A DNA stretch of 10,653 nucleotides. Source: Bacillota bacterium (GTDB lineage Bacteria > Bacillota > Sulfobacillia > Sulfobacillales > Sulfobacillaceae). This document shows, in pieces, positions 4,820 through 10,653 of this stretch. The DNA lies in contig JAKADI010000023.1 of the NCBI GenBank assembly GCA_021820675.1, forward strand, positions 1-10,653, written 5' to 3'. The notes beneath the pieces are model-generated. The model was not told the origin of the DNA, did not search any database, and worked only from the letters and a program-made list of their open reading frames with translations. The translations under genes and the position numbers were made by a program. Position 1 is the stretch's first letter; every line of letters begins with the position of its first letter.

Positions 4820-6805
4820 TCATACAGGCTTTCTCAGGCATGGAATCCCCGCTAACGCCTCAGGATTGTCCAATCCCGACACATCGCCGGCCGGCTCCCC
4901 CAAAGCTGCCGACCGAACGATGCGGCGCATAATCTTGCCGTTGCGGGTTTTGGGCAAGGCTGGGACCGCCACCAAATATGTCGGCCTGAGTGGCTTCCCG
5001 AGCGCTTCGGCTACGCGGTCCATTAAAGATGCGCTCCAATCCGACGAAGTTACGGTTTCCGGCACCACCACAACAAAGGCCGCTAACACCTCGCCTTTTA
5101 TGGGATCGGGAATTCCAACCACGGCGGCTTCCGCAATTGTGGCGTCAGCTAATAGTACCGCTTCCACCTCTGCGGGTCCTATGCGTTTACCGGCAATTTT
5201 CAAGGTATCATCCGTACGTCCAAGGACAAACCACGCTCCACAATCTGTGGCAACAGCCCAATCTCCATGGACCCACTGTCCAGACCACCGGCGCCAATAG
5301 GTCTCCAAGTAGCGGTCGGCATCATGCCAAAAACCCTGTGTCATTCCCGGCCAGGGCTGGCTTACCACGAGTTCTCCCACCGTATTTCTTACGGGTTTTC
5401 CCCAGTCGTCAACGACCTTTGCTGCCATTCCTGGCACAGGCCCGGAAAAGGCACACGGGTATAATGGTTCCAACAGTGTGCCGCCTAAAATCCCACCGCC
5501 AATTTCCGTTCCCCCACTATAATTCATGATGGGGCAGCGCGATTGCCCGACATGTCTAAAAAACCAGTACCAGCTGTCCGGATCCCAAGGTTCCCCCGTT
5601 GAACCTAACACCCTGAGGGACGATAAGGCCACTTCCGGTGTGCTCCCCGACTGGGCCATCAACCCGCGTATGAGGGTCGGAGCTAATCCTAGCACGCTCA
5701 CCCCATGTCTTTGTGCAAGTTCCCATACCCGCCTAGGTCCGGGGTAATCCGGCGCTCCATCATAAAGAACGACCGTGCTCTGACGTATTAATCCCCCGAT
5801 AATGGCCCAAGGGCCCATCATCCATCCGAGATCTGTCATCCACCACAACACATCTCCCGGGCCAACATCAAAGACGTGCCACAAATCTTGCGCCGCCTTC
5901 AGAGGGAATCCGCCATGCCCATGGACCGTTCCCTTCGGCTTGCCGGTGGTGCCTGACGTATAAAGGAGCAGGCATGGGCTATTCGGCAAGAGCCGTTCAA
6001 TGGGGATGGTTGCTCCCTCATGGTCGTCCATGAAGTCATTCCACCAGAAATCTCGCTGCGGAAACCAACCCTCCACTTGGCCGATATGATTCACCACCAA
6101 GACGTGGCTAGACCAAGGCATGTGATCCATCACGCGATCGATCACCGTTTTCATCAAAACACGTTTCCCACGGCGCATCACGCCGTCCGCCACGATGACG
6201 TACCGGACTTCTGCGTCGATAAGCCGTTGGCGTATCGCATCTTCCCCATACCCAGAAAACAAGGGAACGGCGATGGCCCCTAACAAGCCGAGCGCAACCA
6301 GGGCCACCGCCGCCTCCCCTATCATCGGTAACATAAGGCCGACGGTGTCGCCTCGCTTCACGTCCCACCGCTCGCGCAACGACCGGGCTAGTATGCGGGC
6401 TTGGCGCATCAGTTTCCCGTACGTCCAGGTGCTTACCTCCCCAGACTCCGTCTCCGCGACGATTGCCTCCACCTGGGCCATTGGCCCCCCTGCCTGCCGT
6501 TCGACCGCCGCAACCCAGTTTGTCGTCCCGCCGACAAACCACTGGGCCCATGGCTTCGTGCGAGAGACATCCAGAACCGTATGGTAGGGACGGAACCACG
6601 GCCATTGTAATCCTTGCTCTACGCGCTGCCAAAACCAGGCCGGATCCTTTTCCGCTTTTTCCCGTAAAGCTTGGACCGACGGCAATTCCAATTCTTGGAG
6701 AAATTGCCCTAAACGGGTTGTGTGATAAGCGTCTGCTGCCGGGGTCCACGCAGGCTCCCGATTAATCCATTGTTCCCAGGCCGCAGCGGGCCGGTGTTCA
6801 TTCAT
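4820..6805 (-). CDS. AMP-forming acyl-CoA synthetase, probable acetoacetyl-CoA synthetase
   Basis: Member of the acetyl-CoA synthetase-like branch of the adenylate-forming (ANL) enzymes: it adenylates a short carboxylic acid with ATP and transfers it to CoA. With the ATG at 6805 it has 661 residues, close to Acs and AacS (about 650). Visible motifs: N-terminal ACS domain, P-loop YTSGTTGKPKG (282-292), HGHGGFPLKAAQDLWHVFDV and DLGWMMGPW, VLGSTGEP, NYSGGTEIGG (428-437), hinge GRTDD (529-533), and the catalytic lysine in NGKIMRR (Lys624), the site acetylated in Acs. Where acetate-specific Acs has WWQTE, this protein has SGGTE, so the tryptophan closing the acyl pocket is missing, which suggests an acid larger than acetate. 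Next to a ketone carboxylase subunit, acetoacetate is the likely substrate; propionate or another short acid is possible. A GTG at 6826 would add seven residues but would lie upstream of the strong AAGGAGGT site. More GC-rich by eye than the dusB-lysS block. Confidence 0.9.
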   Translation of the reverse strand: MNEHRPAAAWEQWINREPAWTPAADAYHTTRLGQFLQELELPSVQALREKAEKDPAWFWQRVEQGLQWPWFRPYHTVLDVSRTKPWAQWFVGGTTNWVAAVERQAGGPMAQVEAIVAETESGEVSTWTYGKLMRQARILARSLRERWDVKRGDTVGLMLPMIGEAAVALVALGLLGAIAVPLFSGYGEDAIRQRLIDAEVRYVIVADGVMRRGKRVLMKTVIDRVMDHMPWSSHVLVVNHIGQVEGWFPQRDFWWNDFMDDHEGATIPIERLLPNSPCLLLYTSGTTGKPKGTVHGHGGFPLKAAQDLWHVFDVGPGDVLWWMTDLGWMMGPWAIIGGLIRQSTVVLYDGAPDYPGPRRVWELAQRHGVSVLGLAPTLIRGLMAQSGSTPEVALSSLRVLGSTGEPWDPDSWYWFFRHVGQSRCPIMNYSGGTEIGGGILGGTLLEPLYPCAFSGPVPGMAAKVVDDWGKPVRNTVGELVVSQPWPGMTQGFWHDADRYLETYWRRWSGQWVHGDWAVATDCGAWFVLGRTDDTLKIAGKRIGPAEVEAVLLADATIAEAAVVGIPDPIKGEVLAAFVVVVPETVTSSDWSASLMDRVAEALGKPLRPTYLVAVPALPKTRNGKIMRRIVRSAALGEPAGDVSGLDNPEALAGIPCLRKPV

Positions 6806-6812
6806 CTGGCCT

Positions 6813-6820
6813 ACCTCCTT
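6813..6820 (-). promoter_or_regulatory. Strong ribosome binding site of acyl-CoA synthetase
   Basis: AAGGAGGT, seven bases before ATG at 6805. It is a full Shine-Dalgarno match and lies inside the reading frame that an upstream GTG (6826) would open, so it sets the start at 6805. Confidence 0.85.
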
Positions 6821-6864
6821 AGCCACTGATTATCAAACGAAGTCAGACATATGGATTGCACGGA
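6821..6864. other. Short gap between rpoN and acyl-CoA synthetase
   Basis: No -24/-12 element and no terminator seen on the minus strand. A GATAAT lies here but has no -35 partner. Co-transcription of the synthetase with rpoN is the simplest reading. Confidence 0.45.
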
Positions 6865-8115
6865 TTAAGGGGCTGACCTTCCCCGCGGAGGGGTCAATCC
6901 CAATTCGCGCCGCCATTTGGCCACCGTACGGCGGGGAACACAAAACCCTTCCCTTTCCAAACATTGGCTAATTATTCGATCGGAGCGGGCCCCGTGCTCT
7001 ATCCAATATCGGATGCGGTGCTGAATAGTCCGGCGATCTGCGCTCGCCCCGGGAACTAGCTGACGCAAGCGCAATATTCCCCGAGGCAGCGCAATCACCC
7101 GATTATGCAATACCCTTTGCACAGTCGTCTCGTGAACCCCAGCGATGGGTGCCACCTGAGCCACGGTTAAAGCCCGGGGTGAGAGGGCATCACCGAGACA
7201 AAATGGCGCTTGCGCAACAACGATAGAATGGGTCACAGCCATCAAGACATCACGGCGTCGGCCCATGACCTTCATCCACTGTATAGCGTTTTCTTGCATG
7301 GAATGCCACGCTGTTCCCGAATTGGCCCGAGGTTCGGCCAGATCCCGCCGACGGCAACGGAGCATATAGGGATCGTTGACCTCAATTTTCCATTCACCTT
7401 GACTGCCTTGTCGCTGCGCCCACAAACTCACCCCCAATCCCCCTGACATCATGTGATCGTCCCGGCCTATCAGAGGATAAGGACGGCAGCGGCGAATATG
7501 CTCCATGGCCGTTGTTACCTGAGGTACCGTCGATGCCGTGACGCGAGCTAACCACGTCGGTTCCCGGAGCCAATCTGCCAGAGGCAATTGGAGGATATCG
7601 CGTTCAACGGAACCATCTAAACCTAAACGTTGGAGTTGAAGCCAGACCGCCTCCGGCACTGACCGTGCACCGATTCCCGGAGGGTCGAGGGATTGCAGGG
7701 CCCAAAGGGCCCTACGGGCATCGGCCGGCGCGACACCCGTCTGAGAGGCCACTTCTGGTACGGTACATGAGACCAGGCCATGAGCATCCAGCGCCTGCCA
7801 CCAATAACGGAATGCCCGTCGTTCGACCAGGGACAACATATTTTCCACTTCCGCAAGTGTCATAAGCCATTCCCACTCTGTCCAGGGATTCGACGCCACT
7901 GTCGATTCCACAGGCCATAGGTAAGGGTGATAGTCAGGATTAGAAACCACCTCGAGAAAAGGGTTGGCTTCAGCGGCCTTCCAACATTGCTCCGCCCATT
8001 CATCATCAGAACGGTCCAACCAAGTGGCCACTTGCATCCATAGGAGCGTTACCGATGTATGAAGCGCGGTCCCGACTTGCACCTGCGATTCCACTCGATT
8101 TCCCGTATGCATCAT
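6865..8115 (-). CDS. rpoN: RNA polymerase sigma-54 factor, short divergent form
   Basis: Sigma-54 directs RNA polymerase to -24/-12 promoters and needs an AAA+ activator to open them. The 416-residue protein (E. coli RpoN has 477, Bacillus SigL 436) has a reduced N-terminal region I ending ANPFLEVV (ENPxLE in the family), the core-binding domain with LDPPGIGARSVPEAVWLQLQ (143-162), the central HTH LTVAQVAPIAGVHETTVQRVL with ALPRGILRLRQL, and a C-terminal RpoN box RRTVAKWRRELGL, close to the classic ARRTVAKYRE. Region I contains few glutamines compared with the Q-rich family norm, and the box has P for A and W for Y. The start region reads TTGATGATG; ATG at 8115 has AGGA eight bases upstream and overlaps the activator's TGA by one base (TGATG), implying translational coupling. 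A TTG at 8118 or ATG at 8112 is possible. It most likely serves the neighbouring activator; whether it also acts genome-wide is unknown. Confidence 0.93.
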   Translation of the reverse strand: MMHTGNRVESQVQVGTALHTSVTLLWMQVATWLDRSDDEWAEQCWKAAEANPFLEVVSNPDYHPYLWPVESTVASNPWTEWEWLMTLAEVENMLSLVERRAFRYWWQALDAHGLVSCTVPEVASQTGVAPADARRALWALQSLDPPGIGARSVPEAVWLQLQRLGLDGSVERDILQLPLADWLREPTWLARVTASTVPQVTTAMEHIRRCRPYPLIGRDDHMMSGGLGVSLWAQRQGSQGEWKIEVNDPYMLRCRRRDLAEPRANSGTAWHSMQENAIQWMKVMGRRRDVLMAVTHSIVVAQAPFCLGDALSPRALTVAQVAPIAGVHETTVQRVLHNRVIALPRGILRLRQLVPGASADRRTIQHRIRYWIEHGARSDRIISQCLEREGFCVPRRTVAKWRRELGLTPPRGRSAP

Positions 8116-9914
8116 CAACTTTTTCCTGCTTTCTTTAGACGGCGGTATATTGTGCTCCGCGAAACTCCTAGTTCGGCCGCCGCAGCACTGACACTACCGG
8201 GATGACGTTTAAGGGCCTGTAGCGTAGGGTCGGGCATCAAAGCCGGAGAACATTGGTACAATAATTCTGGGGTAATCACTCCGTCACCCGCAAAAATCGC
8301 ACACCGTATCAAGACATTGCGCAACTCCCGGAGATTCCCCGGCCAGGAATATGCCATCAAGACCTGCAGGGCCGTTTCGGTGAGCCCCAAAGTCGGTTGA
8401 CCGACTGTTTTACTGGCTTCCTGGAGGAAATAGCGTGCTAAGAGTTTCATGTCGGTGATTCGCTCCCGAAGCGAGGGAACAGTCAATTCGACAACCGCCA
8501 AACGGTAGTATAAGTCGGCACGAAAACGCTGACAGTCAACCAATTCCCTCAGATCGCGATGCGTCGCCGCCACTATTCGGACATCCAAAGGAATGGGCGT
8601 CGTACCGCCCACCCGGACGAGTTCCTGCATTTCGAGCACTCGCAGCAGATAGGGTTGAACAGACAAGGGCAGTTCGCCGATTTCATCCAGGAAAATGGTT
8701 CCGTGATGGGCCGCCTCAAATTTTCCGGCCGCACCCTGGGGGCGAGCACCTGTAAAAGCCCCCCCTTCATATCCAAACAGTTCGGGGCCCACCAAATCGG
8801 ATGGAATCGCACCGCAATTGACGGCTACAAAAGATCCCGATGCCCGCGGGCTAGCTTGATGAATCGCATGGGCCACTCGTTCTTTACCCGATCCCGTTTC
8901 TCCGTACAGCAAGATGGGCACAGATGTGGGCGCGACTTGATCGATTTGATGAATAAGCTCCAGATAAGCCGGGTTCCCCCCTATCAAATCGTGGCGATCA
9001 TATTGAGCTTTCCAATAAGTTGCCGAATTTTCTATTGTCAGCGGCCTTCGCACAACCACCCAGCCAGACAGATTATCCCCCCGACGTAGCGGAATGAGAT
9101 CGCAGGGGAGTTTTGAAAGTTCACGCAACTCGACGCCTGATTTAATCGCACCTTGTAGCTGATGCTGCTCCAATTCGGTCGGAGGCGGGCCGTGGGTCGC
9201 CACCACGCCGCCATAGCCATCCAATAGCCACAAGGTGTCCTGAGCATAGCGGGATACATAACGCAAGAATTGATTGTGAAGCCACTCACGCTCCCCCTCG
9301 GTGGCGATATGGCAAAGGCCCGCCACCATGTCCCCCATCATTTGGAGCAAGGCCGTTGCCGGATGGTACAAATGCTTCTCCCGAGGCCCTGTGACATCAA
9401 CGACACCCAATAACCGTCCCGAATCCCGATCCCATACCGGTGTAGCAGTGCAGACCCAATCGTGAAACGGTGCAATAAAATGTTCCGATCCCCGAACACT
9501 CACAGCTTGTCCCGTCACGAGCGCGGTTCCGATAGCATTGGTACCCGCTCCGGATTCGCTGTAATCGGCTCCTGGCATGAAGTGAATGGCTGTTTCCGCA
9601 CGCCGCCGAACTCCCTGGTCTCCCGCGACGTAAACTAACACACCTTCGGCATTAGTCAACGCGGCCAAATGTCCTGTATCCCGAACCCAGGTGTCTAACT
9701 GATCCAAGAAGGAGGAAGCCGTGGTCAACGGCTTCCATTCCCGCATCGCTGTTGTTGCGGACTCTGTTACCAGTGGCGGCTTTTGATCGGGGGAGATCCG
9801 TCTATGCACACGTTGCCAGCTTTCTTGAATGAGGGGACGGATCGTTTCGGGGACCACTCCCTGGGTTATGAGTTGCTTCCAGCATTCTTTTAGGTCCCTT
9901 TCACTGGATAACAT
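8115..9914 (-). CDS. Sigma-54-dependent activator, AcoR/AcxR type
   Basis: A 599-residue bacterial enhancer-binding protein. Residues about 60-200 form a GAF sensor domain typical of AcoR-like activators (SESGAGTNAIGTAL, then GSEHFIAPFHDWVCTATPVWD and GRLLGVVDVTG). The AAA+ domain spans about 308-540 with Walker A GETGSGKE (338-345), the sigma-54-contacting GAFTGA loop (385-390), Walker B TIFLDE (406-411), arginine finger segment FRADLYYRL (464-472) and WPGNLREL (524-531). A Fis-type HTH closes the protein (GSVSAAAAELGVSRSTIYRRL, about 573-592). All key ATPase and sigma-54-contact residues are present, so it should be active. The GAF ligand is unknown; acetone or a metabolite is likely by context, since proteobacterial acetone carboxylase operons carry a related activator, AcxR. 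The start at 9914 follows a very purine-rich tract with AAGGAGGGGGT. It overlaps rpoN downstream, and has its own promoter. Specific regulatory target is inferred. Confidence 0.94.
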   Translation of the reverse strand: MLSSERDLKECWKQLITQGVVPETIRPLIQESWQRVHRRISPDQKPPLVTESATTAMREWKPLTTASSFLDQLDTWVRDTGHLAALTNAEGVLVYVAGDQGVRRRAETAIHFMPGADYSESGAGTNAIGTALVTGQAVSVRGSEHFIAPFHDWVCTATPVWDRDSGRLLGVVDVTGPREKHLYHPATALLQMMGDMVAGLCHIATEGEREWLHNQFLRYVSRYAQDTLWLLDGYGGVVATHGPPPTELEQHQLQGAIKSGVELRELSKLPCDLIPLRRGDNLSGWVVVRRPLTIENSATYWKAQYDRHDLIGGNPAYLELIHQIDQVAPTSVPILLYGETGSGKERVAHAIHQASPRASGSFVAVNCGAIPSDLVGPELFGYEGGAFTGARPQGAAGKFEAAHHGTIFLDEIGELPLSVQPYLLRVLEMQELVRVGGTTPIPLDVRIVAATHRDLRELVDCQRFRADLYYRLAVVELTVPSLRERITDMKLLARYFLQEASKTVGQPTLGLTETALQVLMAYSWPGNLRELRNVLIRCAIFAGDGVITPELLYQCSPALMPDPTLQALKRHPGSVSAAAAELGVSRSTIYRRLKKAGKS

Positions 9915-9942
9915 GGCCGAGACCCCCTCCTTCCTCCTCGTG

Positions 9943-9960
9943 CGCTCTCACATGAGAGCG
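9943..9960. repeat. 18-bp perfect inverted repeat in activator leader
   Basis: CGCTCTCA-CA-TGAGAGCG: two perfect 8-base arms around a 2-base centre. It lies between the predicted promoter and the activator start, about 20-40 bases after the expected transcription start. The 2-base centre is too short for an RNA hairpin loop without losing pairs, so a DNA operator for a dimeric protein is more likely than a terminator. No T run follows. It could be an autoregulation site of the activator or a site for an unseen repressor. Confidence 0.6.
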
Positions 9961-9986
9961 TTGAACCCTGGACGTTATTGTTATTT

Positions 9987-9995
9987 AGTATAGCA
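9987..9995 (-). promoter_or_regulatory. Extended -10 promoter for activator-rpoN-synthetase operon
   Basis: Minus-strand TGCTATACT fits the extended -10 pattern TGnTATAAT with one mismatch. No good -35 is seen, and no -24/-12 element is present in this 111-base gap, so the activator operon appears to be read by the housekeeping sigma factor. Predicted from sequence only. Confidence 0.55.
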
Positions 9996-10025
9996 AATTG
10001 TGGTGGAGTTGGTTGATATTACCGG

Positions 10026-10586
10026 TTAATCGGAGCTATCCGCCGGCATGGTGGGTAAGGGCCGTCCCAACCATTCCTGGTAAAAGGTCTCAAGGTCAGG
10101 AATGAAGGAATGCACCGGCGGATACCACGGCGGCACAGTTTCGACTTCCAATTGCGTACCACAGCTTGGACAATAATATTCGCGGTACTCTTGCCATGCA
10201 GGGTCAGCCCCCATGAAATTGGGGTAAATTTCCCGAATCGTCTCTGCCGTATTACGCACATAAACCAATGCCTGTTCTTTCCAATTTTCTCGGTAATCGC
10301 CAAATTCAAATCCGCAATCACTCTTGATGATTCGTCGCCCATCCGCGGTCTGCACAACATTCAAATGAAAAGCAAACGGAAGGAGAATCTGGTCGGGATA
10401 GGGCATGCGAGATTGTAAAATTTCGATGACCTGGTCAAACCGATCCGGGTCCTTAAAGGTTGATAACATTTCATGCAGTGTAGGCCAGGTAACCTTGCCG
10501 TCAATCAGTTCCTCGATAGTCTGGCGATCGAATCGACGCCGTCGCCCTGCGGTACGTAAGGACCCGGAATGTTCTGCACTTGGCAT
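10026..10586 (-). CDS. acxC: Acetone carboxylase gamma subunit
   Basis: Small subunit of the ATP-dependent ketone carboxylase, a cytoplasmic alpha2-beta2-gamma2 complex in the known enzymes, which turns acetone and bicarbonate into acetoacetate. The 186-residue protein matches the family along its length: IEELIDGKVTWPTLHEMLSTFKDPDRF (24-50), EILQSRMPYPDQILLP (55-70), CGFEFGDYRENWK (91-103), VYVRNTAETIREIYP (108-122), YYCPSCGTQLEVE (137-149), PPWYPPVHSFIPD and FYQEWLGRPLP at the end. A basic extra segment of about 20 residues precedes the conserved part (RTAGRRRRFD). The zinc-type cysteines are C91, C139 and C142; the family often has CxCGH at the first pair, but here it is SDCGF, so one cysteine is replaced by serine and the histidine by phenylalanine. 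AGGAGGT lies six bases before ATG at 10586. Related subunits also occur in carboxylases for other ketones, such as butanone or acetophenone, so acetone is the best but not the only substrate. Confidence 0.92.
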   Translation of the reverse strand: MPSAEHSGSLRTAGRRRRFDRQTIEELIDGKVTWPTLHEMLSTFKDPDRFDQVIEILQSRMPYPDQILLPFAFHLNVVQTADGRRIIKSDCGFEFGDYRENWKEQALVYVRNTAETIREIYPNFMGADPAWQEYREYYCPSCGTQLEVETVPPWYPPVHSFIPDLETFYQEWLGRPLPTMPADSSD

Positions 10587-10592
10587 AATGAC

Positions 10593-10599
10593 ACCTCCT
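10593..10599 (-). promoter_or_regulatory. Ribosome binding site of acxC
   Basis: AGGAGGT, six bases before the ATG at 10586. A small CTTCC/GGAAG stem (10609-10621) lies just upstream; no promoter is visible between it and the right edge, which suits expression from an operon promoter outside the window. Confidence 0.8.
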
Positions 10600-10634
10600 A
10601 GAATATTCCTTCCGGGGGAAGCGTCCCCGACTAT

Positions 10635-10653
10635 TCAGACGGCCACTTCCTCC
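10635..10653 (-). CDS. Possible last codons of the upstream gene (partial)
   Basis: Reading the minus strand from the right edge, one frame gives EEVAV followed by TGA at 10635-10637, 48 bases before the acxC start. In acetone carboxylase operons a large subunit gene normally precedes the gamma gene closely, so this could be its C-terminus. Another frame ends in TAG at 10631-10633 (RKWPSE), and six codons cannot identify a gene, so this is only a possibility. Confidence 0.25.

Follow-up and report, generated by a model that had tools for sequence, protein, structure and literature searches.

A divergent sigma-54 gene overlapping the gene of its activator inside a putative acetone carboxylase operon of a Sulfobacillaceae bacterium

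The stretch of DNA considered here, the window, is a whole contig of 10,653 bp (C444) from a Sulfobacillaceae assembly (G000) of 2.6 Mb in 499 contigs that is 61% complete, and the interest of it is in four genes, all on the minus strand, in which ketone carboxylation is found together with two components for transcription. In the order of readout these encode an acetone carboxylase gamma subunit (acxC-like; 10586-10026; PF08882, E 3e-42), a sigma-54 activator, or bacterial enhancer-binding protein, with GAF, AAA+ and Fis-type helix-turn-helix domains (9914-8115; PF01590, PF00158, PF25601, PF02954), a divergent sigma-54 factor of 416 aa counted from the ATG at 8115 (8115-6865; PF04552, PF04963), and an AMP (adenosine monophosphate)-forming acyl-coenzyme A (CoA) synthetase of the acetyl/acetoacetyl-CoA synthetase family (6826-4820; PF00501, E 3e-64; PF13193, PF16177). 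The TGA stop codon of the activator gene and the ATG of the sigma-54 gene have one base in common, and this overlap reads TGATG at 8117-8113. The four gene identities, their order and the overlap had all been given in a preliminary description of the locus, and domain searches and the sequence itself bear them out. Probably what is present is a self-regulating ketone-carboxylation operon with its own dedicated sigma-54 and activator, sigma-54 being in these bacteria a component carried with a pathway and not a general one.

Where are the other carboxylase subunits? The preliminary description looked for the alpha and beta genes to the right of position 10653, and both are there, on another contig of the same assembly (C101, L075) that overlaps the window by 143 bp (10511-10653, 1 mismatch); the contrary case, none next to acxC, can be set aside. 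The two genes immediately precede acxC, with the same orientation, and encode a 747-aa Hydantoinase_B protein and a 711-aa Hydantoinase_A protein; with them the full operon order from the two contigs is hyuA (beta), hyuB (alpha), acxC (gamma), activator, sigma-54 and acyl-CoA synthetase. By sequence comparison all three subunits are closest to acetone carboxylase, with acetone as the putative substrate: against the solved acetone carboxylase chains alpha scores 875 bits, beta 818 and gamma 184, and against acetophenone carboxylase 145, 313 and 33, respectively. The synthetase reaches 541 bits with the acetate--CoA ligase subfamily, the cut-off of which is 657, and acetate-CoA ligases come nearest to it (8rpk, 384 bits, vs 242 for the acetoacetate-CoA ligase 4wd1); it is from the position of its gene that we infer acetoacetate as its substrate. 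The same assembly has a second acetone carboxylase set (C486, L074), with the end of hyuB, acxC and a synthetase in a stretch without regulators, and a third hyuA/hyuB pair on C197 (L076).

The activator matches Sigma54_activat at E 6e-64, together with GAF and HTH_8 domains, and in its AAA+ domain the GAFTGA, Walker A (GETGSGK) and Walker B (IFLDE) motifs are intact; with its C-terminal helix-turn-helix it has the features by which an enhancer-binding protein is recognised. Its partner is less orthodox. The window sigma-54 has a Sigma54_DBD match (E 3e-19) with the RpoN box, PRRTVAKWR, at residue 395 of 417, and a Sigma54_CBD match over the cut-off (E 7e-15) which is shortened, covering 25-144 of the 185 profile positions. 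The Pfam activator-interacting domain (AID; PF00309) is found, at E 1, in none of the five members of its clade, described below, and under the same search is over the cut-off in 4/4 sigma-54s of the propane-monooxygenase (mim)-type clusters, also described below. Because PF00309 is undetectable, the protein is called a divergent sigma-54 and not a canonical RpoN. The N-terminal region has residues that are invariant among the five despite the undetectable AID, and the predicted fold is that of a sigma-54 overall, including two N-terminal helices: it aligns with a solved sigma-54 over 362 residues, from residue 18, at a root-mean-square deviation of 14.6, which is large and reflects several domains.

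How isolated is this sigma-54? A database search in which 8,000 candidates were scored gave 919 matches, and among the 120 listed the closest are 59, 46, 45 and 42% identical to it, after which identity falls to 32% or less. In a tree of 57 rows (7 of the 8 sequences from the order, the near-duplicate from G007 having been dropped, 7 from the class and 43 database proteins from the 120 listed; L012, L014 and L015 were skipped as too short or not found and other class matches were left out) it groups with four other proteins (support 100/100), the branch being 3.4 changes per site in length, and with branches so long it is this clade of five that is used, deeper placement being unsafe. A profile made from the five gives 745 bits for the window gene across 154 class genomes and 147 bits for the next best; no close relative was found in the 153 other class genomes, nor in two contig scans for relatives across genomes.

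For the window sigma-54, activator and gamma subunit alike, the longest contig given for the database protein that is 99-100% identical is one of 96,045 bp, and in a relative, whose three proteins are 59, 66 and 87% identical, respectively, it is for all three one of 43,891 bp. Because these equal sizes recur for all three proteins an assembly error is unlikely, as far as can be told from the listings. Activators behave in parallel, with a clade of six that are at least 50% identical over residues 1-300 and further activators at 26-40%. Equal contig sizes (96,045, 43,891, 10,996 and 9,062 bp) link clade sigma-54 and clade activator in four of five cases, which suggests, from the sizes and not from sight of the DNA itself, that four of the five clade sigma-54s stand beside a matching activator. 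For the fifth (P0003), whose contig is of 3,279 bp, the matches listed include no partner activator. The gamma subunit is tied in by equal size for 96,045 and 43,891 bp only, with none at 10,996 or 9,062 bp among the 120 listed of its 240 matches. On layout and co-occurrence the window sigma-54 would be the dedicated partner of its own activator, and the pair may be an exclusive one.

Upstream of hyuA, 94 bp before its ATG, is TGGCACGGTTGGCGCA, with GG and GC spaced as in -24/-12 promoters, and of 500 versions of the 300-bp region shuffled by dinucleotides, 3 equal it in score. The strict pattern TGGCAC-N7-GC occurs twice in five contigs of the assembly (34.6 kb, both strands), before hyuA and before mimA on contig C14, with the right direction in both, and it is by place and direction, not by number, that the strict site before hyuA is supported. 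Overall the strict pattern had 23 matches, of which 10 are elsewhere than before hyuA, mimA or an amidohydrolase gene. A loose -24/-12 scan gave very many sites in coding DNA and was discarded, only strict or shuffle-tested sites before operons being kept. Consensus scans gave nothing like a sigma-70 promoter before hyuA, where 1.0 would be expected from shuffles, and neither such a promoter (0.1 expected) nor a terminator in the 111-bp gap between acxC and the activator gene (10025-9915). That gap contains a palindrome with 8-bp arms, CGCTCTCATGTGAGAGCG, at 9943-9960. Three acx operons of relatives without the pair, the start being approximate for two of the three, have no -24/-12-like site before them (165 to 457 of 500 shuffles are as good); they have homologous divergent regulators, of which that of G001 is a GAF/PucR-type protein.

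What sigma-54 does elsewhere in the order is central to the interpretation. With PF04552 at E 0.001, 9 of 42 genomes of the order are matched, 7 of them over the cut-off; with G026, whose gene is cut by a contig end, the count is 8/42, the match in G025 (20.7 bits, under the cut-off) not being counted. Strong activator domains (219-232 bits) are in 7 of the 16 genomes searched for them. In six relatives of 93-99% completeness strong activators and sigma-54s correspond exactly one to one, each pair on a single contig (G006 has two pairs), and the 9 genomes of that search that lack sigma-54 have no activator match above 56 bits. Weak PF00158 matches in the assembly with the window, on C480, C440 and C265, reach at most 38 bits (29 with neighbours for one), comparable to what these sigma-54-less genomes give, and are not taken as activators. 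Each of the 9 sigma-54 genes found in the order is near an activator in a catabolic cluster. Among the 34 genomes of the family, sigma-54 and a MimA-type subunit are found in the same 7, a match with a probability of 2e-7 for an independent draw, a figure that ignores the relatedness of the genomes. In another family, G041 has another catabolic set with its own sigma-54/activator pair, at 5469-13387 of C46 (L073), where sigma-54, a luciferase-like monooxygenase, an alcohol dehydrogenase, an acyl-CoA ligase and a divergent activator with a GAFSGA loop are together. A different situation is that of G023, with di-iron monooxygenases of another type (C177, L107; 25-35% to Mim subunits) and no sigma-54 match in the genome. 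The proposal in the preliminary description that the sigma factor travels with the pathway gains support from this order-wide co-occurrence, in the form of one private pair per catabolic cluster.

Six of the 7 family members with sigma-54 have the pair within one mim-type cluster (G001, G006 twice, G007, G011, G014 and G026). According to Pfam and NCBIfam matches of the G011 and G007 genes, such a cluster has sigma-54, two di-iron hydroxylase subunits (PF02332) and a reductase and, in a divergent arm, an amidohydrolase, an iron-sulphur (FeS)-assembly-like protein, an alcohol dehydrogenase, GroEL, the activator and an Nramp-type transporter. Five of these 7 clusters have a MimD-like effector gene, for which there is no gene call in G011 or G014, and in 6 of the 7 sigma-54 is followed by a hexapeptide-repeat gene, G026 being cut before that point. 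Because the effector's best NCBIfam match, propane 2-monooxygenase MimD, is at 127 bits and under the cut-off of 150, the label 'propane' is one of similarity only. In a promoter scan of seven mim clusters (G007 dropped as a near copy of G006; mimA start approximate in G014), all 14 best sites on the two sides of the divergent gap fit TGGCAYNAARNNNGCT at about -84 to -176, with 0 to 25 of 500 shuffles as good. Dyads of the form TGTYGC-N5-GCRACA, a motif derived from these same seven gaps, are in all seven, 1-3 each at up to 2 mismatches, against 0.04-0.11 expected when single bases are shuffled. GSFTGA is the reading in the six mim-type activators examined, in place of the GAFTGA of the window activator. 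The mim clusters of G006 (C123, L068) and G007 (C92, L070) are almost identical (sigma-54 99.8%, activator 100%) in genomes that stand for different species, which would be due to recent transfer or bin contamination.

The assembly with the window has such a cluster too, cut off at the end of C14 (L105, 1-6725), with GroEL, alcohol dehydrogenase, FeS-assembly-like protein, amidohydrolase and the first 125 residues of MimA, before whose gene is the strict -24/-12 site TGGCACCAAACATGCT. It also has the start of a second activator gene, for 359 residues (89% identity with the G007 activator over 343 residues); this activator was absent from the PF00158 search because the contig ends before its AAA+ domain. 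A sigma-54 gene accompanies 7 of the 8 mim clusters seen, the remaining one being this truncated example, and so the genome likely has a second sigma-54, of mim type, in what was left unassembled; a search with the G007 sigma-54 found only the window gene. The C14 cluster weakens the notion of an only sigma-54 and strengthens that of one pair per cluster.

How would the operon work? An acetone-like compound or a derivative of it would act on the GAF domain of the activator, which would then, at the -24/-12-like site before hyuA, remodel RNA polymerase bound to the sigma-54 that the operon itself encodes, and a single transcript would presumably start from that promoter. Acetone would be carboxylated to acetoacetate, which would be activated to its CoA ester. 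Because the activator and sigma-54 genes are inside the operon, induction would raise both regulators, a positive feedback. Recurrence of an own sigma-54 and activator in each mim-type cluster leads to the wider point that sigma-54 is here a pathway-borne part and not a general sigma factor. A bolder extension, to which we give somewhat less than even weight, is that sigma-54 in Sulfobacillaceae, acidophilic Gram-positives, would have no general regulon, that each alkane or ketone cluster would have a private plug-in pair gained and lost with it, and that an altered activator-contact region evolved in the window pair would let two or more sigma-54 switches operate in the same cell and prevent cross-talk between them.

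Could the window gene instead be the organism's general sigma-54, in an acx operon by chance, with its other activators in the missing part of the assembly? That only 61% is assembled, that C14 has a second activator fragment and that no second sigma-54 was found are all in its favour. However, exactly one strong activator per sigma-54 in the six nearly complete relatives, the possession by mim-type clusters of their own sigma-54 in all but the cut case, and the very long branch that the window protein shares with four others, of which three match a clade activator in contig size, make it unlikely. Of the checks proposed in the preliminary description, the one for a second rpoN gave a single sigma-54 in the assembly, while the lack of another is not supported, given the completeness and the C14 cluster, and the one for other activators gave the C14 fragment together with the one-to-one relation in the relatives. 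A somewhat smaller probability goes to the operon being transcribed mainly from another promoter, with the pair regulating something else or the propane and acetone branches jointly. Propane oxidation via 2-propanol yields acetone, and joint regulation would be sensible; the -12 element before hyuA is also poor. However, the mim cluster has its own activator, its dyads recur in every mim gap and before hyuA only with two mismatches, and the consensus scan gave no sigma-70-like site there. Very improbable is that the window sigma-54 is decaying and no longer works with its activator, for which the missing AID match, the shortened core-binding match and the long branch could be cited.

Several points nevertheless weigh against the preferred interpretation, that of an operon with its own dedicated pair. 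Incompleteness of the assembly and the C14 activator fragment make the exclusivity of the pair no more than possible, and with no AID match normal activation of the window sigma-54 is assumed. The mim-type sigma-54s are not its close kin (25-31% identity to these and to that of G041), and sigma-54 is common in the class outside the order (13 of 19 class genomes), contexts having been compared within the order only. The hyuA site, a sequence match only, has a good -24 and a poor -12 element (GCGC, not TTGC), about one strict match is expected by chance (an estimate with equal base frequencies), and the promoter weights and region were fixed after a first look. There is no good enhancer dyad before hyuA, where TGTYGC-N5-GCRACA is present singly with 2 mismatches; it is not claimed as an enhancer, one of the three control acx regions having the same 2-mismatch match. 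The composition and gene content of the surroundings also give little sign of movement: GC content is only mildly higher in the cassette (0.50-0.58) than in its neighbours (0.47-0.52), and recent foreign DNA by composition was rejected for that reason; no mobility gene is among the annotated genes of the window or C101.

On the far side of the synthetase the minus strand continues with a 446-aa protein (4722-3382), then dusB, a helix-turn-helix protein gene, greA and lysS. The 446-aa protein, its family unassigned (no Pfam or NCBIfam match at E 0.001), is at the left edge of the cassette and belongs to the chromosomal backbone outside it. The order of dusB, the helix-turn-helix gene and greA is kept in 10/10 relatives, and in 8 of the 10 a homologue of the 446-aa protein is upstream of dusB, adjoining it in G008, G011 and G014 and otherwise 3-11 kb away or in pieces. 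At the matching place no homologue of a cassette gene is present in any of the six relatives that can be read there (G003, G004, G007, G008, G011 and G014; 3.4-9.9 kb); in G001, G002, G005 and G006 the stretch ends too soon. The cassette was, from this absence, gained here or lost elsewhere. Of the preliminary idea of a movable cassette, its absence from the matching place in relatives stands and mobility as such is not supported.

A family where sigma-54 follows single catabolic clusters allows the spread of a two-part transcription switch together with a pathway to be tested in nature, and it offers a set of small, possibly orthogonal, sigma-54/activator/promoter units, with sigma-54 in acidophiles tied to propane and acetone use. 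In the open literature nothing was found on propane monooxygenase in Sulfobacillus, matches for Sulfobacillus with sigma-54 concern Leptospirillum by title, and the main text of one Sulfobacillus comparative-genomics paper leaves sigma, monooxygenase, acetone, propane and alkane unmentioned.

In Methylosinus trichosporium, whose rpoN, mmoR and mmoG are the subject of Stafford 2003, rpoN reportedly adjoins mmoR. Its monooxygenase system differs from the window operon in that the latter is a carboxylase operon. For methane monooxygenase -24/-12 control and the GAF-type MmoR are known, and the M. trichosporium set of rpoN, mmoR and mmoG, in the part of the source concerned with it, is like the mim-type clusters in having sigma-54, a GAF-type activator and a GroEL-like protein with a di-iron monooxygenase (PMC5874634). 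Most genomes have one rpoN and about 5% have several, sigma-54 being usually cell-wide according to the relevant section of PMC12316311. The control of an acx operon by AcxR and RpoN, to which the preliminary description had appealed, is confirmed for Xanthobacter autotrophicus acxABC in the passage on that organism (PMC2244623), and the window resembles it as an acetone carboxylase operon that would be driven by sigma-54 and a dedicated activator. Unlike the situation described there, the window sigma-54 gene is inside the operon and overlaps the activator gene, and that passage mentions no rpoN in the Xanthobacter operon (PMC2244623). Private pairs are known from Cereibacter sphaeroides (RpoN1-NifA, RpoN2-FleQ and RpoN3-AprX), where each sigma-54 copy studied works with its own activator, as would that of the window; there the pairing was shown by genetics, whereas here it is from layout that we infer it, and the overlap of regulator genes within one catabolic operon is a feature of the window that the Cereibacter passages do not describe (PMC11999139). 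Mesorhizobium loti, with prxS-rpoN2 on its symbiosis island, is a further case: the sigma-54 gene is borne with the pathway that it serves, and a sigma-54-type promoter stands before its operon. It differs in that the pathway is nitrogen fixation, that the island is an integrative conjugative element and that a second gene, rpoN1, is outside the island (PMC3538637). Beside these systems what is new is that a single catabolic operon has both regulators, their genes sharing one base, that a sigma-54 clade goes with this operon, and that there is a family where sigma-54 appears only with such catabolic clusters.

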